Assembly (NCBI GenBank): GCA_012522795.1
Contig: JAAYJT010000067.1
Location: forward strand, 1-46,090
Reading direction: 5' to 3'
Source of the DNA: Bacteroidales bacterium
GTDB lineage: Bacteria; Bacteroidota; Bacteroidia; Bacteroidales; JAAYJT01
DNA: 46,090 bases
Each line of letters opens with the position of its first letter. Within the stretch, counting starts at the first letter, position 1. Positions 127-12,076 of this stretch are shown in pieces. The position numbers and the translations under genes were made by a program. Below the pieces are notes generated by a model. It was not told where the DNA came from, ran no database searches, and was given only the letters and a program-made list of their open reading frames with translations.

Positions 127-324
127 TTTTATAATAATAGGTTTGAAAAAAAGTTTGAAGGACAGAAAGCAGCTGTTTTCTCAGCCGAAAAGATCCCGGT
201 ACTTCATTCTGCTGAAAACCAAGTTGTTAATGCGGTTTTGGCTGCTGTGATGGCTTTACACCTTTCCGATGTTTCAATTGATATAATAAGGAATGTCCTT
301 GCTTCGCAGGATTTCCAGGTTTAG
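127..324 (+). pseudogene. In-frame coding tail ending in the left direct repeat
   Basis: An open stretch of about 65 codons without a good start follows TGA 124-126 and ends at TAG 322-324. It includes IPVLHSAENQVVNAVLAAVM and ends LASQDFQV. The alternation of hydrophobic and Asn/Ala residues loosely recalls the helix after the central domain of Mur-type ligases, but the match is weak and I do not assign a family. The left copy of the 144-bp repeat begins within this frame at 192, and the frame continues upstream of it. The right copy at 11933 has a stop just upstream. The left copy therefore looks like the original gene end and the right copy an orphan duplicate. Confidence 0.35.
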
Positions 325-335
325 TGCGACAGGTT
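192..335. repeat. Left copy of a 144-bp direct repeat bounding the island
   Basis: Bases 192-335 match 11933-12076 at a constant offset of 11741 with only two differences (C315/T12056 and G318/A12059). Similarity stops sharply on both sides. The repeat contains the last 43 codons of a coding frame plus its TAG stop. It may be an attachment-site-type duplication at a gene's 3' end or a recombination scar. No integrase lies between the copies. Confidence 0.9.
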
Positions 336-404: not shown

Positions 405-755
405 TCAGGAGTTAGATTTCTTTAATTCACCTTTTTCCTGAGGTGGTTTTGCAAGCTTCTTTAGTTTTAATTCTATTTCTTCATAGTTACCTAGGTATAC
501 TGTCATTAAACTCTTCCAAAGTTTACCATGATTGGGAACATTGAAATGTAACAGTTCATGAACTATTACATATTCTCCTAATTCTCTATCAATATCAAGT
601 AGTTCCTTGTTGAAATTTAAATTTCCATCTGTGGAGCAGGAAGCCCATTTATTAACCATTGGCCTCAAAGACAATGACTTAACATTAATCTCCATTTTAT
701 TTGCATATTCATGTACGCAATTCTTAAACTCTGCCTTATCTTTCCACTTAGCCAT
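405..755 (-). CDS. Short YgjP/SprT-like (DUF45/WLM-type) zinc metallopeptidase
   Basis: This 116-aa protein carries the zinc-binding signature HELLHFNVPNHGKLW at about residues 66-80: an HExxH-like HELLH, with a downstream His that can complete the metal site. That is the pattern of the YgjP/DUF45 and SprT-like families. These are usually about 230 aa, so this is a compact form holding essentially the peptidase core, followed by a Lys-rich tail. It is the last gene of the restriction operon, starting 2 nt after the hsdR stop codon, so it is almost certainly co-transcribed. DUF45 proteins are frequent neighbours of hsdR in bacteria, but their role there is not established. Its substrate is unknown; a role in protein turnover of the restriction complex is only a guess. 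Confidence 0.75.
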   Translation of the reverse strand: MAKWKDKAEFKNCVHEYANKMEINVKSLSLRPMVNKWASCSTDGNLNFNKELLDIDRELGEYVIVHELLHFNVPNHGKLWKSLMTVYLGNYEEIELKLKKLAKPPQEKGELKKSNS

Positions 756-757
756 AA

Positions 758-3703
758 CTACAATTTGAATGCGATGAATAAATGGTTAAACAATTCATCA
801 ATAAGATTAGCCACTTTGTCGATATCATCTTCCTCTGATAGCAAAACAAAATAAACCGCTTTTCTAAGTTCTCTTAATTCTTTTTCACTTGTTTTCCAAT
901 TCGGATGACTGATAAATTCATCTTTTATTTGGTTGGTTATTTCTTTTGTTTTGCCAATTCCTTTGTCAAGCAGCTTACTGTATATAAAATAGGTTAACCC
1001 GTCAAAACCCATTTCAGCTTGTTTTTTTCGGCGCTTTACATCTTCTTCGAAAAGCTTTTTGATTTCTTCAAGAGCTTCCTGAGTGCTTATTTGGCGGTTT
1101 TCGTATTTTTCTTCAACCAATTCCGCCCTTTCTTTAATCCCTATCAGATATGGATCATCAAGAACTTCATCCGCTCTTTTTTCAATACTCTTAATCAGAT
1201 TGATGACCTTTGTATTGCTGTTTTCATTTTTACCTTTTATATACTCAATTGTTTCTTCATTTATTTCGAAATACTCATTCTTGAATTCCGGGTAAGAACC
1301 GGCGACTTTGCGCTGCACCAATTCATTGGTCTTACGCTGAAATTCTTTATCCACCATTATCCGCTTTGCGTAAGCATTCCTGACCACCTTATAAATGGCA
1401 GAAAGTGTTGCATATGGTTCAATGTACGGCCTAAGGAATTTATCAGGTGAAATGATTTCATAGAGCATTTCAATTTCCTTAAAAAGTCTGTATAGTTCCT
1501 TGCGCTTGGGTTTATCCCTGAAATGTTCTATTAAATTGTCCGTATCCTTATCAATGAATCCGCTCCTGATTAAATCCAGATAAGGCGGAACTTCTTCTTC
1601 CATCTTTGATTGGAAAAGGTATTTCAGCAATTGAATATCTTTTACAATTGCATTGATTTCATCACTATCAAAAGCCAATGCTTTTTCAAGATTTTCAAAA
1701 ATGCCCACAAAATCAAGAATAAATCCATGCAGCTTCACCATTTCAAGTTCTTCATTCTCATAAGGCCGGTTTACCCTTGCAATAGCCTGTAACAAAGTAT
1801 GATCACGCATGGGTTTATCAAGATACATGGCATAAAGAACCGGTGCATCATAACCCGTAAGCAGTTTTTCAGTTACAATCAGAATTTTGGGCTGCTCATC
1901 CAATTTGGTAAAGCGCTTCCTAATTTCCTTCTCCTTTTTTGGATCAAGATGATATGCTTTTAACTCTTCTGTATCGTTGTTGTTGCCGGTATAAACGACT
2001 TCAGAATATTCGGAAGGGAGATATTTATCCAATGCCTTTTTATACATTGCACAGGCAGGCCGGTCAACTCCAACCAGAAATGCTTTGTAACCCAACGGCT
2101 CAACATTTTCTTTATAATGCTTAGCAACATAGGCTGCAACTTTATCAACTCTTTCCCTGCCTTTCAGGAAGTTTTTGGTGTTTACGGCCCGTTCCAGAAT
2201 TTTATTCAACTCCTCAATATCATTAACACCATGAGCTTCGGCCAAATTCAGGAACTCCTCCTCAAGAATTTCCTTAGGTACCAGCAATTCATTCGGCGCC
2301 ATACCGTAGAAAAGCGGCAGTGTTGTTCCATCATCAATACTATCTGAAATCGAATATTTATGTAAATACCCCAGTTCATCATCTATTCCAAATGTTTTGA
2401 ATGTACCACGGCCATACGCTGTTTTATCAATAGGAGTTCCGGTAAAACCGATAAATGTGGCATTAGGTACGGCTGCCATCAGAAAATTCCCCAAATCACC
2501 ACCGGTAGTCCGATGTGCTTCATCAATCAGTACAAATATATTTTTCCGCAAGCTCACATTTGCCGGCATATCCCTGAATTTGTGAACCATGGTCACCAAT
2601 ATACCCCGGTAATCACTTTTTAAAATGCGCTGCAATTCGTGAATACTCTTTGCCTGCGCAACATTGTTGATTCCAACCGACTCAAGATTTTTCAGCATCT
2701 GATCTTCAAGCTCGTTGCGATCTATCATTAGCAGAATGGTAGGCTTTTCAGTTTGCGGAGCTTTGAACAACAGCTCGGCAGATTTAATCATTGTGTAAGT
2801 TTTTCCGCTACCCTGTGTATGCCAAACCAATCCCCTTGTTTTTGACAGATCCAAAGCCCGTTCCAATACTCTGTCAACAGCCGTTTTCTGATGTTGCCGC
2901 AAAATATATTTATTGAGTTCTTCATCCTTTTCAGCAAACAGAATGAATTTTTTAAGCAGATCAAGTATATGCCGGCGTTCGCAAAATGATTTTACCTTTT
3001 CCTCGAGATTCCCTATTGAGTCCACACTGGAGTCAGTGTTTAAACTCTTCCAGTTAAAGATATTCCTGCGAATGGTGTTCCAGGTTACACCATACGAAAA
3101 ACCAATGCTTTCAGTAACTGAAAACAACTGCTGAGCAACCATTAACTCGGGAGTTTCCCGGTGGTATCTTCTAATCTGATCTATCCCTATGGAAATGGCC
3201 TCATCAATGGTAGCATTCTTGCATTCAATAACCAGAACCGGAATGCCATTAATTAAAAAAACCACATCTTCACGAATGGCTTTCTGGCCGTTATAGAAAT
3301 AGTATTCTTCAGTTATCTCAAAAATATTATTTTCAGGATGGTCATAATCAATCAAAATCAGGTTGAATTCCCGATTTTCTTCTTTACTGAAAAATGTTTT
3401 TTCACCTTGCAGGTATTGAAGGAAATCGCGATTGCCATGAATGGTGGGTAAAGGCAGTTCTAACAAACGCAATAAGTCTTCCTTGCTGTCTTTAAACTGA
3501 GGATTGAATTGTTTTACCTTTTCAAAAAGCGTATCCGTAAAAAAGCGGCTGGCGTTGCTTGCTCTTTCTCTTGGTGATTCAGCTAAAATGTCGAAACCTC
3601 TGCGACTTTCAGCTTCGTTTTGCGAAACAAAAGTCCATCCGATTTCACTCGCATATTTTAGTATACGCGTCTGAACGCTTTTATGTTCGGTGGGTTTTGC
3701 CAT
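758..3703 (-). CDS. hsdR: Type I restriction endonuclease subunit R (HsdR)
   Basis: This is the translocating motor and nuclease subunit of a type I restriction enzyme, acting with HsdM and HsdS on unmodified DNA. In the 993-aa frame opened by the upstream Met at 3739 (numbering used here), the N-terminal PDDEXK nuclease shows D159 and the E172-x-K174 pair in VLVIECKNA. Walker A is HTQGSGKT (307-314), the helicase motif II is DEAH (406-409), followed by GFTGTP, and the late arginine motif is QAIARVNRPY. The C-terminal third is helical and charged, as is usual for HsdM/S docking. I chose the second Met (3703, MAKPTEHKSVQ) because it cuts the overlap with the upstream glycosylase gene from 59 to 23 nt; the Met at 3739 is also possible. 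All catalytic motifs are intact, so the enzyme should be active. Confidence 0.95.
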   Translation of the reverse strand: MAKPTEHKSVQTRILKYASEIGWTFVSQNEAESRRGFDILAESPRERASNASRFFTDTLFEKVKQFNPQFKDSKEDLLRLLELPLPTIHGNRDFLQYLQGEKTFFSKEENREFNLILIDYDHPENNIFEITEEYYFYNGQKAIREDVVFLINGIPVLVIECKNATIDEAISIGIDQIRRYHRETPELMVAQQLFSVTESIGFSYGVTWNTIRRNIFNWKSLNTDSSVDSIGNLEEKVKSFCERRHILDLLKKFILFAEKDEELNKYILRQHQKTAVDRVLERALDLSKTRGLVWHTQGSGKTYTMIKSAELLFKAPQTEKPTILLMIDRNELEDQMLKNLESVGINNVAQAKSIHELQRILKSDYRGILVTMVHKFRDMPANVSLRKNIFVLIDEAHRTTGGDLGNFLMAAVPNATFIGFTGTPIDKTAYGRGTFKTFGIDDELGYLHKYSISDSIDDGTTLPLFYGMAPNELLVPKEILEEEFLNLAEAHGVNDIEELNKILERAVNTKNFLKGRERVDKVAAYVAKHYKENVEPLGYKAFLVGVDRPACAMYKKALDKYLPSEYSEVVYTGNNNDTEELKAYHLDPKKEKEIRKRFTKLDEQPKILIVTEKLLTGYDAPVLYAMYLDKPMRDHTLLQAIARVNRPYENEELEMVKLHGFILDFVGIFENLEKALAFDSDEINAIVKDIQLLKYLFQSKMEEEVPPYLDLIRSGFIDKDTDNLIEHFRDKPKRKELYRLFKEIEMLYEIISPDKFLRPYIEPYATLSAIYKVVRNAYAKRIMVDKEFQRKTNELVQRKVAGSYPEFKNEYFEINEETIEYIKGKNENSNTKVINLIKSIEKRADEVLDDPYLIGIKERAELVEEKYENRQISTQEALEEIKKLFEEDVKRRKKQAEMGFDGLTYFIYSKLLDKGIGKTKEITNQIKDEFISHPNWKTSEKELRELRKAVYFVLLSEEDDIDKVANLIDELFNHLFIAFKL

Positions 3704-4184
3704 TTGTAAGGGTATTAAGTTTTTTCCAATATTCCTCATTCCAATAGCTGTGGGCTTTTGCAGATGTTGACGGAGCTACAAAAAACTTAGTTTCTCCAAG
3801 ACATTCATTTTGTAAACCATAGTCTATTTTTTCTACTCCGAAATATTTCTTTGCAGCTTCTTTTCCGTTAAAGCATACAAACTGCGGTTTATATTTTTCT
3901 ATTTTCTCATTGAAGTCAGATATGTTGTAATCTTCTTGCTTCAAATCTTTATCCATTCCTGATTTTTGCTTTACTAAATCAGTTAGTCCGATACCGTAGT
4001 CAATTAATTGTTCATATTGAGACGGAATAAGTTGAACAGGAGTGAACCCTGCATGATGCAATACACAATAAAACTTATTTCCGCATCCGGCATAATAAGC
4101 TTCTTGTTGAGCAGAACGATTACCTGCAGCAGTTCCGCAAAAAACTACTTTTAAATTTTCTTTTAACAAATCTGGTATTTTCAT
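3681..4184 (-). CDS. Mug/TDG-like DNA glycosylase (uracil-DNA glycosylase superfamily)
   Basis: A 167-aa protein with the Mug-type layout. Motif 1 is CGTAAGNRSAQQ (16-27), then YYAGCGNKFYCVLHHAGFTP (30-49), a GIGLTDL segment (64-70) and motif 2 APSTSAKA (137-144). Family members remove uracil, mismatched thymine or other deaminated bases from DNA. In E. coli Mug motif 1 is GINPG, with a catalytic Asn; here it is GTAAG, a variant seen in many bacterial relatives, so substrate preference cannot be inferred. It lies 8 nt downstream of hsdS and overlaps hsdR, so it is a built-in member of the restriction operon. A possible job, inferred only, is repairing deaminated bases at modified or cleaved sites. 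Confidence 0.8.
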   Translation of the reverse strand: MKIPDLLKENLKVVFCGTAAGNRSAQQEAYYAGCGNKFYCVLHHAGFTPVQLIPSQYEQLIDYGIGLTDLVKQKSGMDKDLKQEDYNISDFNEKIEKYKPQFVCFNGKEAAKKYFGVEKIDYGLQNECLGETKFFVAPSTSAKAHSYWNEEYWKKLNTLTNGKTHRT

Positions 4185-4192
4185 ATTAAATT

Positions 4193-4870
4193 CTATTTTT
4201 CTGCTGTTGAAGTTAGCGATTGTTCTTCTATTTTGTATATTTTTTCGGGGACTTCGAGTGCCTCAGCCACCCCGGGTAGCACAGCCATCGGCATGCCTTC
4301 GGTAAAGAGTTTTTGCATCAGTGCTTTTTTGAGTTCGGTGGTGTGGCGGATAAGTTTATCCTGCTGCTCTATGGCTTTTTGCACCGTGCTTAAGATATAG
4401 GCGATTTTGCGTTGCTCGGGGAGGGGTGGTAGGATAATATCAAATGTTTTGATAATGGTTTGACTTATGTTGGGTTGTGCACCTCCATACCTTTGTTTTA
4501 GAAAGTCTTCTCGTTTAAACATCAGTTGAAAGCGAAGAAACTCATTATTGCATTTTTTTTCCTTTGGAATAATTCCGCAGACAGCTTGATTAGTTGTAGC
4601 TTGGACTTTTAAAATTGCTGTTTTCCCAACAGTTGCACCATACATTGCCATTAAAACAGTTCCTGCGGGGAATAATTTTGCAGAAGAATTTTTTACAGCT
4701 TCTTCAGTAATCTTCTCCTCCGTATCAAAAATATAATTATCTTTCAATTCACCAGATTTTACCCATAAGATATTCCCATTATAATAACTTTTATTAGCTC
4801 TGCTTGGGGTGCCTCCACTTGTTGTTTTTGCAATCTCTTCAATTGCTTTTATTTTCCAATCTTCCATCAT
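4193..4870 (-). CDS. hsdS: Half-size type I specificity subunit (HsdS, one target-recognition domain)
   Basis: This 225-aa protein has a single target-recognition domain (about 15-145), including GGTPSRANKSYYNGNILWVKSG-type residues near 19-40, followed by the conserved LPPLPEQRKIA (148-157) and the helical spacer ending KKALMQKLFTEG (181-192). Normal HsdS proteins are 400-450 aa with two such halves, and the second recognition domain would begin after LFTEG. Here it is replaced by a short tail encoded by a REP-like sequence (4247-4273). Half-S subunits are known to dimerise and then recognise a palindromic bipartite site, so this may still function. The ATG overlaps the GIY-YIG stop as ATGA; a second ATG follows directly at 4867. 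Confidence 0.88.
   Translation of the reverse strand: MMEDWKIKAIEEIAKTTSGGTPSRANKSYYNGNILWVKSGELKDNYIFDTEEKITEEAVKNSSAKLFPAGTVLMAMYGATVGKTAILKVQATTNQAVCGIIPKEKKCNNEFLRFQLMFKREDFLKQRYGGAQPNISQTIIKTFDIILPPLPEQRKIAYILSTVQKAIEQQDKLIRHTTELKKALMQKLFTEGMPMAVLPGVAEALEVPEKIYKIEEQSLTSTAEK
4247..4273. repeat. REP-like hairpin element inside the hsdS 3' end
   Basis: The plus strand contains CTTCGAGTGCCTCAGCCACC within an imperfect palindrome (GGGG...CCCC arms). It matches the minus strand of the hairpin at 4968-4992 closely, so the two copies are inverted relative to each other. It is translated as part of the HsdS tail (GVAEALEVPEK). Confidence 0.6.
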
Positions 4871-4890
4871 ATCCCCAACTTTTTAGAATT
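4867..4890 (-). repeat. Junction repeat copy 3 (end of GIY-YIG gene / start of hsdS)
   Basis: Plus-strand TCATATCCCCAACTTTTTAG matches 5553-5572 and 6434-6453 with few differences. It encodes KKLGI-stop of the upstream gene and, in the overlapping frame, the ATG of hsdS. This is one of three copies within the hsdM-hsdS interval. Confidence 0.8.
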
Positions 4891-5328
4891 GTTTTTATTG
4901 TCGCTGCCTTCGAGAGCCTCAGTCAGCGGATTTTTCCTCAGCGGATTTTCAGGCATTGTATTGTCCAGGTGGCTGAGGTTCTCGAAGCCACCCATAGCAG
5001 TATTCTCGAAGCCACCCTTTACAAAGCCACCCGATAACTTTTTCAAATCTCTATATGCCACAGCCAATGTAGGTAGCAATTCCGGCATTCCGTTTATAAG
5101 TGCTTCTTTCTTTTTCCGGCTCCAGCCCTGAACCTGTTTTTCTCTGTAAAATGCTTCATCAACTCTTGCATATTCTTCATAATACACCAAACTAACCGGT
5201 AATCTTTTTTTGGTGTGATTAGCTCCTTCGCCTGCCTGATGCTGTGCTAACCTCAATTCCAGATTATTGGTGCTACCCGTGTAGTAGCTGCCATCAGTAC
5301 ATTCCAGTATGTACATATATCCTTTCAT
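4867..5328 (-). CDS. GIY-YIG nuclease-domain protein with repeat-derived tail
   Basis: The first 85 residues form a small YhbQ/UvrC-type GIY-YIG domain: GYMYILE (3-9) and YYTGST (15-20) replace the canonical GIY and YIG, followed by a conserved Arg (LELRLAQH) and a catalytic-type Glu in FYREKQVQGWSRKKK. Family members are metal-dependent endonucleases. From about residue 97 the protein is low-complexity (GGFVKGGFENTAMGGFENL) and encoded by REP-like hairpin sequence, then ends KKLGI like HsdM and the ORF6N protein. It sits between the truncated ORF6N copy and hsdS. It may be a stray domestic nuclease gene carried as a cassette rather than a restriction subunit; it lacks homing-endonuclease DNA-binding modules. 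Confidence 0.8.
   Translation of the reverse strand: MKGYMYILECTDGSYYTGSTNNLELRLAQHQAGEGANHTKKRLPVSLVYYEEYARVDEAFYREKQVQGWSRKKKEALINGMPELLPTLAVAYRDLKKLSGGFVKGGFENTAMGGFENLSHLDNTMPENPLRKNPLTEALEGSDNKNNSKKLGI
4968..4992. repeat. REP-like palindromic hairpin inside the GIY-YIG gene
   Basis: GGTGGCT (4968-4974) and AGCCACC (4986-4992) form a 7-bp perfect stem around an 11-base loop. A partial copy follows at 5003-5017 (TTCTCGAAGCCACCC), then a diverged one near 5025-5033. A similar element in inverse orientation lies at 4247-4273. The form resembles the interspersed TTCGA-centred palindromes common in Bacteroidota genomes; no REP-associated transposase is in the window. Confidence 0.65.
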
Positions 5329-5340
5329 TTACTTTTTATT

Positions 5341-5556
5341 TTATGACCTTAAACTGCTCCACTCTTTTTCAGTAAGCCGATATCTGAAGCCCTCCGGAAA
5401 TCGTTCAATATTTCTTTTAACTGCCTGATTGAAAACTTTTGTCTCAATATTATACATCTCGGCAAGATGACTGTCGAGCATCACCTGCCGGTCGCGAATG
5501 GTAAAAATCCAGATTTCAATATCTTTCCCTTGTATCGTTGGATTGTTTGTTCTCAT
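5341..5556 (-). pseudogene. Truncated ORF6N-domain protein
   Basis: The 71 residues contain the N-terminal part of an ORF6N domain: IFTIRDRQVMLDSHLAEMYN (17-36), VFNQAVKRNIERFPEGFRYRLTEKEW (41-66). ORF6N proteins are normally 170-300 aa, so most of the domain and all of the C-terminal region are gone; the frame stops just after the conserved QLT-EKEW region. It is not a duplicate fragment of its neighbour, since the residues differ. It overlaps the upstream ORF6N gene by ATGA at a junction repeat, but its own 3' end lacks that repeat, so the missing part was probably lost when the GIY-YIG gene arrived. It could still be translated as a small DNA-binding peptide. Confidence 0.7.
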
Positions 5557-5576
5557 ATCCCCAGTTTTTTAAAAAT
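5553..5576 (-). repeat. Junction repeat copy 2 (ORF6N gene / truncated ORF6N gene)
   Basis: Plus-strand TCATATCCCCAGTTTTTTAA is a near copy of 4867-4886 and 6434-6453. It encodes KKLGI-stop of the full ORF6N gene and overlaps the ATG of the next gene. Confidence 0.8.
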
Positions 5577-6437
5577 AACGATTGACTCTTTATCCATCTT
5601 ACTGAAGGCAAACCATTTTTTGCCCAAATCTTTCAGTGAAGCGCCTATATGATATACCTCCGTTTCATCAATCAGCAAAAAACGATCATGCGAAGCATCA
5701 AATGCATGAAGGGTTAATCCGCCATACTGTTGATTGAATTTTTTGGCATCTTCCTGCAAAGCTCTGCTTATGTTTTTTGTGTAAATGCTTAGTGATACTG
5801 TTTTCTTCTTTTTTGCAAACAGTGAAAGAATGGTTTCGTCCACATAATTGTCAATTAAAATCAAACTGCTTTTTGCGTTTTTTACCAGGTCGCTGATAAA
5901 CACCCAGGCATCAAACACCTGTCCATCAAAGAAAATGCCTTTATCGGGTTGTGTCTTTTTGCTTTCAAGGGCTTTAAAAATACCCTCTATTTTTTGGTCG
6001 GTATCCAATTGTTTTATCTCAATCCGGTCTAATCGTTCAAACAGCCGCCCATGCTGCACAATAAACTTGCGCATTGCCACAAATGCACGCATAATCATAA
6101 TGCTCACTTCTGCCGCTTTCTCACTTTTGAGAACTGCCGATACAGCCGCCACTCCTTGTTCCGTAAAAGCATAAGGCATATATCCGCCAAGCGATTGTAT
6201 GGAAGGTATCGCATTTTGCGATACCAGACTCTCCACCTCGCTTCGGGTAAGCTGAAAAACGAAGTCGTCAGGAAAACGGTTTGCATTGCGTTTCATCTGT
6301 TCTCTTAGGCGTATGGGTTTTACTTCGTAAAAAGTAGCCAGATCTTTATCCAAAACCACCTGAGTATCTCTAATGGTAAAGATTCTTTTCTCAATATTCT
6401 GCTGGGTCAGTGCCCGTACTTGTATCTTGTTACTCAT
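5553..6437 (-). CDS. ORF6N-domain protein with PLD-like C-terminus
   Basis: This 294-aa protein has an N-terminal ORF6N domain (about 16-130: IFTIRDTQVVLDKDLATFYE, then REQMKRNANRFPDDFVFQLT and GGYMPYAFTEQGVAAVSAVL). ORF6N is a DNA-binding module known from phage antirepressor-type proteins. A helical linker follows. The C-terminal part (about 165-290) resembles a phospholipase-D-like fold, with HDRFLLID near residue 255 as a variant half of the HKD motif; only one half is evident, so catalysis is doubtful. It overlaps hsdM by ATGA and is translationally coupled to it. Such genes are recurrent passengers inside hsd operons of Bacteroidota. A regulatory or anti-restriction-control role is plausible but unproven. 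Confidence 0.82.
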   Translation of the reverse strand: MSNKIQVRALTQQNIEKRIFTIRDTQVVLDKDLATFYEVKPIRLREQMKRNANRFPDDFVFQLTRSEVESLVSQNAIPSIQSLGGYMPYAFTEQGVAAVSAVLKSEKAAEVSIMIMRAFVAMRKFIVQHGRLFERLDRIEIKQLDTDQKIEGIFKALESKKTQPDKGIFFDGQVFDAWVFISDLVKNAKSSLILIDNYVDETILSLFAKKKKTVSLSIYTKNISRALQEDAKKFNQQYGGLTLHAFDASHDRFLLIDETEVYHIGASLKDLGKKWFAFSKMDKESIVIFKKLGI

Positions 6438-6457
6438 ATACCCAACTTTTCAAAAAT
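6434..6457 (-). repeat. Junction repeat copy 1 (end of hsdM / start of ORF6N gene)
   Basis: Plus-strand TCATATACCCAACTTTTCAA is the first of three related sequences (others at 5553 and 4867). It encodes KLGI-stop of HsdM, with the next gene's ATG overlapping the stop. This is probably the ancestral hsdM 3' end. Confidence 0.8.
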
Positions 6458-8020
6458 ACTTTTCAGTTCCTTATCTACTTGTATTGCTTCTTCTTCCAAT
6501 ATATTCAATTCTTCCACCAATTCGTCAATTGGTCGGTAGATTTCGGCATCGGCAATTTGTATGTAACGGCTGGGGCTAATGTTATAATCGTTTTTTATAA
6601 TCTCTTCTTTGCTGACTAATCGCGAAAATTTTTCTTCTTCCTTAAATGCCTTAAAATATTCACTGATTTTTTCAATGCCTGCATCGGTGATATAGTTTTT
6701 GGGGTCACCTTTCTCGAATTCTTTGCCCGCATGAAGCAGATACATTTTGTCTTTATGCTTTTTATTCTTGTTCAGAAAAATCACAATACCAGGTGCTGTA
6801 GTGTTGTAAAAAAGGTTTTCGGGCAGGTAAATCACACCTTCAATCAAATCATTGTCCACAAACCATTTGCGGCAATCTTTTTCTTTGTTGTTGCCCTGGT
6901 TGCCACTGCCGCGGCTGGCAGCACCGGTGTCTAAAATAACGGCTGCTCTTCCTTTGTCGTTCAGGCTACTGTATATATGCTGCATCCAACCCCAGTCAAT
7001 TTTTCCGCCACAACTGCCTGCGGGGAAGCGCACCATTTCATCATTGATAAAAAAATCATCATTGATATAGGGCAAGCTGTCTCGCCCCTGGTTCCACATC
7101 GGGTTGGCTACTACACGGTCAAAAGTTTTTAGTTTATTTTTGTTTCTGAACTTGGGATTTTTCAATGTGTCTCCAATTTCAATTTCACCCTCCATGTCGT
7201 GAATTACCATATTCATTTTGCTCATGGCCCATGTTGACGGGGTAAATTCCTGGCCAAACAGTTTCAGCGATGCATATTTAATATCTTCGCCCTTAGGGAG
7301 CCTCAGGGTTCTCATCTTTTCATCCATTACCAGTTGGCACTTAATGAGCAAACCGCCACTGCCGCATGTAGGGTCATATATTTCCATACCCGGCTCAGCA
7401 TCCATAATTTTTGCCATGATTAAACCTACCTCGGCCGGTGTATAAAACTCACCGGCACTTTGCCCGCTGCCTTCAGCAAATTTGCGTATCAGATATTCGT
7501 AACTACGACCAATAATATCCAGTTCTACATCATTAAGTCCCAATCTTTTTTCAGCAACTTTTTCAATCAGCTTGCTCAGGCGGTCATCATCAATATCTCT
7601 TTGCCCGTGTGTGGTTGCATTAAAGTCAATGCGATCAATGATTCCCTGCAAGCCGTTATTTTCCCTTGCTACCAAACGCAGTATGTCAGTAAGCTGCTGA
7701 CCGATTTTATCACTCAAAGTCCGGATAACATCCCAGGTTGATTCTTTCTCAAGGTCTTTCGGTCGCATAGGCAGATAAAACCGCACCAGCAATTTATCCC
7801 TTTCTACCAGTTGCAGCGCTTTGGTCCTTGATTTTACTTTCTCGGCAATGCGGTCAATCTCATCATCAAACACATCACATAAGCGCTTTATAAAAATGAG
7901 AGGAAGAATATAGTCTTTGTATTTGGCTGCATCAGCAGCACCTCTGATACTGCATGCTGCATCCCAAATCCATGATTCCATGGATTTTACTTTCTCTCCG
8001 TTTCCGTTTAATTTGGTCAT
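6434..8020 (-). CDS. hsdM: Type I DNA methyltransferase subunit (HsdM)
   Basis: The 528-aa N6-adenine methyltransferase subunit pairs with HsdS to methylate the recognition site and forms the core of the restriction complex. An N-terminal helical domain (about 14-150, including SIRGAADAAKYKDYILPLIF) precedes the catalytic domain. That domain carries AGEFYTPAEVG (189-199), the SAM-binding DPTCGSGG (216-223) and the catalytic motif IV NPMW (306-309), a variant of NPPF/Y seen in this HsdM subgroup. The length is normal and nothing is broken. It begins 16 nt after the stop of the 920-aa PIN protein, which suggests one transcript. Its 3' end (KLGI-TGA) overlaps the ORF6N gene. Confidence 0.95.
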   Translation of the reverse strand: MTKLNGNGEKVKSMESWIWDAACSIRGAADAAKYKDYILPLIFIKRLCDVFDDEIDRIAEKVKSRTKALQLVERDKLLVRFYLPMRPKDLEKESTWDVIRTLSDKIGQQLTDILRLVARENNGLQGIIDRIDFNATTHGQRDIDDDRLSKLIEKVAEKRLGLNDVELDIIGRSYEYLIRKFAEGSGQSAGEFYTPAEVGLIMAKIMDAEPGMEIYDPTCGSGGLLIKCQLVMDEKMRTLRLPKGEDIKYASLKLFGQEFTPSTWAMSKMNMVIHDMEGEIEIGDTLKNPKFRNKNKLKTFDRVVANPMWNQGRDSLPYINDDFFINDEMVRFPAGSCGGKIDWGWMQHIYSSLNDKGRAAVILDTGAASRGSGNQGNNKEKDCRKWFVDNDLIEGVIYLPENLFYNTTAPGIVIFLNKNKKHKDKMYLLHAGKEFEKGDPKNYITDAGIEKISEYFKAFKEEEKFSRLVSKEEIIKNDYNISPSRYIQIADAEIYRPIDELVEELNILEEEAIQVDKELKSIFEKLGI

Positions 8021-11932: not shown

Positions 11933-12076
11933 GATCCCGGTACTTCATTCTGCTGAAAACCAAGTTGTTAATGCGGTTTTGGCTGCTGTGATGGCTTTAC
12001 ACCTTTCCGATGTTTCAATTGATATAATAAGGAATGTCCTTGCTTCGCAGGATTTTCAAGTTTAGTGCGACAGGTT
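11933..12076. repeat. Right copy of the 144-bp direct repeat
   Basis: It matches 192-335 with two mismatches. The coding frame that runs into the left copy is blocked immediately upstream here (TAA), so this copy carries an orphan gene 3' end. Recombination between the copies would remove about 11.7 kb containing the entire restriction operon. Confidence 0.9.

Follow-up and report, generated by a model that had tools for sequence, protein, structure and literature searches.

Why should unrelated neighbouring genes end in the same residues, and how can a translationally coupled operon take up genes while those downstream remain expressed? Both questions are raised by a type I restriction-modification operon of a Bacteroidales bacterium (assembly GCA_012522795.1, contig JAAYJT010000067.1), found in a stretch of 46,090 nucleotides (nt), hereafter the window, where genes for ORF6N and GIY-YIG proteins lie between hsdM and hsdS. 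The first-pass annotation had reported near-identical copies of one sequence at 4867, 5553 and 6434, each encoding KLGI and the stop codon of one gene and overlapping, as ATGA, the start of the next, and had proposed that the hsdM/hsdS junction was copied at every insertion of a gene. The three copies are real, being the first family returned by a repeat finder, and the overlap of KLGI-stop with the next start as ATGA holds at all of them. Judged by sequence comparison, the repeated element is the 3' tail of hsdM. We consider it probable that genes were inserted at the ATGA overlap, each retained insertion leaving an hsdM-type tail before the downstream gene, and that such insertions were favoured for keeping the coupling.

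According to the list of open reading frames (ORFs) and Pfam, the genes for HsdM, the ORF6N protein, a truncated ORF6N protein, the GIY-YIG protein, HsdS, a glycosylase-superfamily protein, HsdR and a YgjP-like protein all lie on the minus strand. The part from hsdM to hsdS is composed of the following features (aa, amino acids):

6434–8020, minus strand: hsdM, 528 aa, ends IFEKLGI-stop; junction copy 1 at its 3' end (6434–6457)
5553–6437, minus strand: ORF6N protein, 294 aa; start in copy 1, end IFKKLGI-stop in copy 2 (5553–5576)
5341–5556, minus strand: second ORF6N gene, truncated, 71 aa; start in copy 2; Pfam ORF6N 7.8e-21, profile positions 3–57 of 86
4867–5328, minus strand: GIY-YIG protein, 153 aa, ends NSKKLGI-stop in copy 3 (4867–4890); Pfam GIY-YIG 4e-18
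4867–4896, minus strand: junction copy 3, hsdM-type tail joined to hsdS
4193–4870, minus strand: hsdS, 225 aa, single target-recognition domain; Pfam Methylase_S

The final 24 nt of hsdM, of the ORF6N gene and of the GIY-YIG gene are identical at 20 positions in each of the three pairs, a level reached by 5 of 23,641 pairs of non-homologous ORFs ending in ATGA (223 ends, all fetched loci); three of these five represent the window's own locus, refetched as L160, compared with KLGI junctions elsewhere, and two remain. The 15-mer AARTTGGGGATATGA, present exactly only in the third of the window copies, has 19 matches in 296 genomes of the phylum. Twelve of them do not coincide with the end of an ORF of at least 35 aa, five close ORFs of 37–47 aa, and the other two are the end of an hsdM and copy 3, so that an ORF longer than 50 aa is ended by it in only two cases, the hsdM and the GIY-YIG gene of the window. 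This exact-pattern search for the junction, which revealed no additional filled locus in these genomes, was used as background. The view that each copy opens the next gene is correct as regards the overlap, but copy 2 opens the 71-aa ORF6N fragment, longer relatives of which exist, and not the GIY-YIG gene; the latter starts 12 nt past the end of the truncated ORF6N gene, which had been overlooked.

Junctions of the same kind in a single copy, hsdM-ATGA-hsdS with KLGI or KLGV, were found in nine related operons (L006, L010, L011, L014, L021, L034, L035, L037 and L113, where L numbers designate the fetched loci), and the empty sites that the first-pass annotation had suggested looking for are thus present. 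Copy 3 together with its downstream sequence is similar to the native hsdM-hsdS junctions of L011, L113 and L037, as well as to a tail remnant in L005. Since, in addition, HsdS of the window is 84% identical to the 416-aa HsdS of L011 over residues 1–192, where the homology stops, copy 3 is most readily interpreted as the hsdM/hsdS junction of the original operon and not as one newly copied. Copying of the junction at every insertion is accordingly acceptable as to the source, the hsdM tail, but not for copy 3, which looks original and is still attached to hsdS.

For a survey of hsdM-hsdS intervals, hsdM loci were fetched by similarity to HsdM or ORF6N, and longer stretches were taken at 60 places. 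Of these extended regions, 57 were hand-picked from HsdM matches, mostly near full-length frames, and three (L219, L220 and L221) extended loci whose matching ends had already been noticed; L219 and L220, as well as the pattern-search loci, contributed no row. The set comprised 117 distinct hsdM-hsdS rows, with an interval of at least 60 nt in 67, or in 65 after removal of two L079 rows with fragmentary hsdM; unrelated genes are thus frequent between the subunit genes of type I operons. In a strict test, the 3'-terminal 90 nt of hsdM were aligned to the interval without gaps, with the stop codon as anchor, and compared in this respect with the tails of unrelated hsdM genes (less than 50% identity). 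The operon's own hsdM tail outscores every foreign tail in 11 of the 65 intervals, against 0.88 expected: L005, L008, L016, L068, L101, L175, L176, L185, L186, L221 and the window. An opposite-strand control gave 1/65 (0.88 expected). The copies in this test range in length from 18 to at least 90 nt. An earlier gapped test, with 8/67 at p≤0.02 and 14/67 at p≤0.05 (1.34 and 3.35 expected), was replaced by the anchored one because several of its alignments stopped short of the junction (L061, L062). The hsdS start was misassigned by the script in L008, L108 and L174, and L108 was consequently not fairly tested.

The positives span four tail types, KLGI/V, LGVG, KEIQR and IKELI, and are estimated to represent about six events; the HsdMs of the KLGI/V and LGVG types are ~65–69% identical to each other. 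The cargo includes genes of ORF6N, KilA-N, Bro-N, HicAB and GIY-YIG proteins, and the suggestion that other cargo should be found flanked by such copies was borne out for all four types, the copies being of the local hsdM tail. In the KEIQR type, L183 is an empty site, and L175, L176, L185 and L186 pass the copy test: in L185 the KilA-N protein ends in KEIQR as HsdM does, with 21 identical nt, and is followed by a Bro-N gene and hsdS; L176 contains 19 nt of exact identity to the hsdM tail; in L186 a Bro-N protein is followed by a 62-nt hsdM-tail remnant and then by hsdS. In L101, HsdM ending in IKELI is followed by an ORF6N protein ending in IKELI and by hsdS.

Tail remnants are also found outside any cargo gene, with lengths of 131 nt in L221 and ~78 nt in L005. 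The order in L221 is hsdM, HicA, HicB, the 131-nt copy of the hsdM tail (117/131) and a gene whose product starts with MKIFISSVQK and contains the Pfam domains HATPase_c_4 and Fic-like_C. In L117–L119, a gene with the same MKIFISSVQK start follows hsdM in direct overlap, and the 16–19 nt past the stop codon are identical to the L221 copy. Other segments of these proteins are, by eye, common to L221 and L117–L119, and there are internal differences, so that the comparison is one of relatives, not of isogenic strains. In L016 (5251–5633), a 102-nt repeat spans the hsdM/hsdS junction itself; the ORF between the repeat copies resembles, by eye, a truncated N-terminus of the adjoining PDDEXK_3 gene.

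A different arrangement was observed in L007 (7315–9080), where genes of a DUF1016_N protein and of a DUF1016_N and YhcG_C protein lie between hsdM and hsdS, and both begin with ATATGAAACAG; here, the start and not the end seems to be duplicated.

An ORF6N gene between two KLGI junctions, as in the window, was found in L008 (Hydrotalea sandarakina DSM 23241), where the ends of hsdM and of the ORF6N gene share 28 identical nt, and in L068; L015 has the same layout, with KLGV at the first junction and KLGI at the second. Among the fetched loci, KLGI ends 4 of 33 distinct ORF6N C-termini with the GASLKDLG motif, and all four belong to this hsd family. Homologues ending in KLGI outside hsd loci, which would have spoken against the copying of the junction, were not found: the ending is absent from all 28 ORF6N tails outside this hsd family, from all five plasmid homologues and from all 29 GIY-YIG loci examined. 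The plasmid homologues are five regions, without an annotated hsd gene, inspected from 71 plasmid records with an ORF6N match. L106 and L107 were not counted, as only 8–9 nt of overlap are in common and the gene preceding ORF6N in L107 was not established as hsdM. A second hsdM-hsdS pair in the window's own genome (L002, contig C78) also encloses a gene with the C-terminal domain of the 294-aa ORF6N protein, a domain which we take to be PLD-like; no hsdM-tail copy is detectable at this pair.

The first-pass annotation treated the GIY-YIG gene as a cassette of the same kind. It does end in copy 3, but it follows a truncated ORF6N gene, its C-terminal tail is encoded by palindromic repeats of its own (GGTGGCTTCGAGAACCTCAGCCACC and relatives), and it then reads through into copy 3; to judge from this organisation, it is probably not a cassette of the ORF6N kind. 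Two repeats of this type are located in the window as follows:

4968–4992, minus strand: palindromic repeat GGTGGCTTCGAGAACCTCAGCCACC of the GIY-YIG element
4247–4271, plus strand: degenerate copy of the GGTGGCTTCGAGAACCTCAGCCACC repeat, three mismatches, in the non-homologous C-terminal end of hsdS

In L005, a metagenome-assembled genome of Candidatus Kuenenia hertensis, a GIY-YIG protein with 80% identity is encoded between hsdM and hsdS together with the same kind of repeats, and the element is followed by the hsdM-tail remnant of ~78 nt, which contains an in-frame stop and is joined to hsdS. Repeats of this type lie near the GIY-YIG gene in 4 of the 29 loci (L260, L262, L263 and L264). The association of GIY-YIG genes with CTGAGGYTCTCGAA-type palindromic repeats in the window (4968–4992), L005 and these four loci looks like a small repeat-associated mobile element.

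Such palindromic repeats altered protein C-termini in the window, where hsdS after residue 192 is partly encoded by the degenerate GIY-YIG-associated repeat. With its half-size HsdS, the window lacks the two target-recognition domains of type I systems, and half-size HsdS is able to act as a dimer in some systems. HsdM of the window carries the domains of a type I HsdM (Pfam N6_Mtase 4.2e-86, HsdM_N 1.1e-22), and HsdR those of a type I HsdR.

The stop-start overlap offers a possible reason for the retention of the copies. hsdM ends in ATGA in 11/11 positives and in 17/54 negatives (Fisher 2.4e-5, which ignores relatedness and is favoured by the stop-anchored test), an association consistent with retention of the copies on account of the overlap that they bring. 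The copied sequence of the KEIQR type additionally contains AAGGAG, a ribosome-binding-like stretch, shortly upstream of ATG. According to PMC3510504, translation in EcoKI is coupled where hsdM and hsdS overlap, and the copied tails may likewise preserve coupling into the next gene.

The whole island is itself flanked by direct repeats. Its further features are:

192–335, plus strand: left copy of a 144-nt direct repeat, 142/144 identical to the right copy
11933–12076, plus strand: right copy of the 144-nt direct repeat
405–755, minus strand: YgjP-like peptidase
758–3739, minus strand: hsdR, in the same operon; Pfam HSDR_N, SWI2_SNF2 and ResIII
3681–4184, minus strand: uracil-DNA-glycosylase-superfamily protein

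Ten ORFs lie between the two repeat copies, the outermost ones encoding YgjP (405) and a 280-aa protein (11,716); a third match to the repeat was not found in the genome, and its 65-aa frame gave nothing below E 0.24 in Pfam. The whole hsd island was thus apparently inserted with a long target duplication, a process with this direct-repeat signature that is described for restriction systems in the accessible parts of PMC3031569 and PMC1643837.

The history of the window, including the order of events, the DNA mechanism and the selection for coupling, may be reconstructed as follows. An ancestral operon, in which hsdM ending in KLGI overlapped hsdS as ATGA, would have undergone repeated insertion at the overlap by target duplication, or by an equivalent template switching that re-entered the hsdM tail. 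The first event would have set an ORF6N gene between two tails, with its frame entering the tail through a short stretch of identity (..KL), which gave the protein its KLGI end. A second ORF6N gene would then have arrived and been cut later by the GIY-YIG element with its palindromic repeats, the GIY-YIG frame running on into the surviving original hsdM/hsdS junction. Insertions that kept the tail would have been favoured, since the stop-start overlap, in one family together with AAGGAG, would couple translation onward and finally to hsdS.

A number of observations weigh against repeated insertion at the overlap. Copies 2 and 3 resemble the hsdM tails of other operons more than the local one (26 versus 22 of 30; 29 versus 26 of 36). 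The strict test is failed by 54 of the 65 cargo intervals, with weaker likely copies in L015, L174 and L020, and copying "each time" a gene was inserted was therefore an overstatement. L221 was surveyed only because L115, which already showed the copy, was extended; without it, the result is 10/64. A control inside and beyond hsdS gave 4/104 against 1.34 expected (scores 11–24), a mild excess that shows some imperfection in the calibration of the null; neither this nor the way in which L221 was chosen changes the main outcome. As the 11 positives are not independent of one another, the Fisher value overstates the association with ATGA. In L185 and L016, the copy does not stand immediately before hsdS. 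For the island as a whole, a search of 59 other genomes with the reading frame contained in the repeat gave no match, and an empty site was not found. Finally, the KLGI shared by HsdM and the ORF6N protein is only partly borrowed: several ORF6N relatives carry x-K-L in the same register followed by other residues (for example, LQKLNEKS, LQKLEGKNHE and IIDKL), and in L018, of the same layout, the ORF6N protein retains an EKLEI end, although its hsdM ends differently. Because "KL" is native to this ORF6N family in the same register, only "GI-stop-ATG" would be borrowed, which points to joining at a short match.

The strongest rival, unlikely in our estimate but to be taken seriously, is allelic import: hsdM together with its cargo would derive from a different hsd operon, brought in through homologous recombination on one side and joined illegitimately on the other, and the copy in front of hsdS would be a remnant of the old resident hsdM. 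No target would then be duplicated, two hsdM alleles would be juxtaposed, and the resulting anatomy would be the same as that produced by insertion at the overlap. Copy 3 and its hsdS indeed look like one native unit, as in L011 and L113, and the L005 remnant is nearer to the tails of other operons (53/80, ungapped) than to that of its own hsdM (47/80), behaviour repeated by copies 2 and 3 of the window. What speaks against import is that in L016 (41/45) and L008 (28/30) the local hsdM is the best match of the copy, and that the repeat in L016 spans the junction itself; the in-frame fusion of ORF6N proteins to the tail would also demand an extra step.

Convergence is far less probable: the site itself would select for overlapping stop and start codons together with a ribosome-binding-like stretch, and the proteins concerned would end in lysine-leucine stretches anyway. 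The native "KL" of many ORF6N relatives agrees with this, as does an ORF in L176, by eye similar to the L185 KilA-N protein, which ends in RKEILP, near KEIQR. Part of the "KL" match may indeed remain explained in this way, but the exact identities of 28 nt in L008, 21 nt in L185 and 19 nt in L176, the remnants outside cargo genes in L005 and L221, and the excess of own over foreign tails in the survey contradict it. Site-specific recombination of cassettes, with the junction as an integron-like integrase recombination core, would account for repeated junctions, several unrelated cargo genes and their head-to-tail order, but is hardly credible, as the tail types have no common core beyond the stop-start overlap, the copies vary in length and no recombinase is present among the Pfam-scanned window and cargo proteins.

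If genes enter at the overlap and leave hsdM tails behind, the duplicated tail answers how a coupled operon can accept genes without silencing those downstream. It also provides a searchable signature: tail copies would mark likely insertion boundaries and make cargo separable from core genes. Tail copying would further explain the common C-terminus of unrelated neighbours, which could mislead homology or motif analysis. More tentatively, and with doubt on our part, the 3' tail of hsdM may be viewed as a reusable coupling module, such that operons with the ATGA overlap keep defence genes behind tail copies, grow as series of tail-bounded cassettes and lose cassettes exactly by recombination, as the duplicated tails predict. 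If so, loss of a cassette between tail repeats would restore a working hsdM-hsdS overlap, and operons could take on and shed defence cargo with the restriction system intact.

Among known processes, insertion with long target duplication is the closest; Nobusato et al. reportedly described it in 2000 for restriction-modification genes. Similar to that process, direct target repeats of variable and mostly great length, linked to restriction systems, flank the inserts: 144 nt around the island, which fits directly, 131 nt in L221, 102 nt in L016 and ~78 nt in L005, with only 24–30 nt in the window operon. Insert-free relatives with a single target copy, although not isogenic strains, are represented by the nine KLGI/KLGV junctions, by L183, and by L117–L119 for L221. 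As for the insert being restriction-modification genes, the whole island would fit, although no empty site was found for it, whereas the operon-internal cargo consists of other genes. The differences are that here the target is the operon interior, the 3' end of hsdM, that the insert is cargo, and that the duplicate persists as a junction between genes, where it may supply the C-terminus of the cargo protein. Unlike a transposon with a fixed short target duplication, the copies measure 18–131 nt, and no transposase was found among the scanned proteins; unlike an integron cassette array, there is neither a common core beyond the stop-start overlap nor an integrase among the same proteins.

Additional ORFs in hsd loci are already described, namely, mlo between hsdS and hsdM and rlo between hsdR and hsdS (2005 work cited in PMC5183652); similar to the cases presented here, they lie between hsd genes, and the accessible part of that source does not mention a duplicated hsdM tail at the cargo boundary. 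DarTG2 in the RRDM island of enteropathogenic Escherichia coli is, according to the available text of PMC12255303, embedded in a type I system at a site called a potential recombination hotspot. It is similarly a defence cassette inside a type I operon, but its position is between hsdS and hsdR and not where hsdM and hsdS overlap, and junction copies are not described in that text. For type IB systems, it is proposed in PMC3510504 that hsdS acquired the C-terminal tail of hsdM and that this tail was duplicated; in that case, the tail ends up within HsdS, while here it separates inserted genes. In L139, a stretch inside hsdS (4065–4162) is similar to the operon's own hsdM tail, with a score of 24 that no foreign tail reaches, and possibly represents such an incorporation. 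A description of duplicated hsdM tails between hsdM and hsdS was not found among the titles and abstract openings searched, a coverage that is incomplete. Intervening ORFs, embedded defence genes, long target duplication and hsdM-tail duplication in HsdS are already known, and what appears to be new is that copies of the hsdM tail serve to delimit inserted genes.

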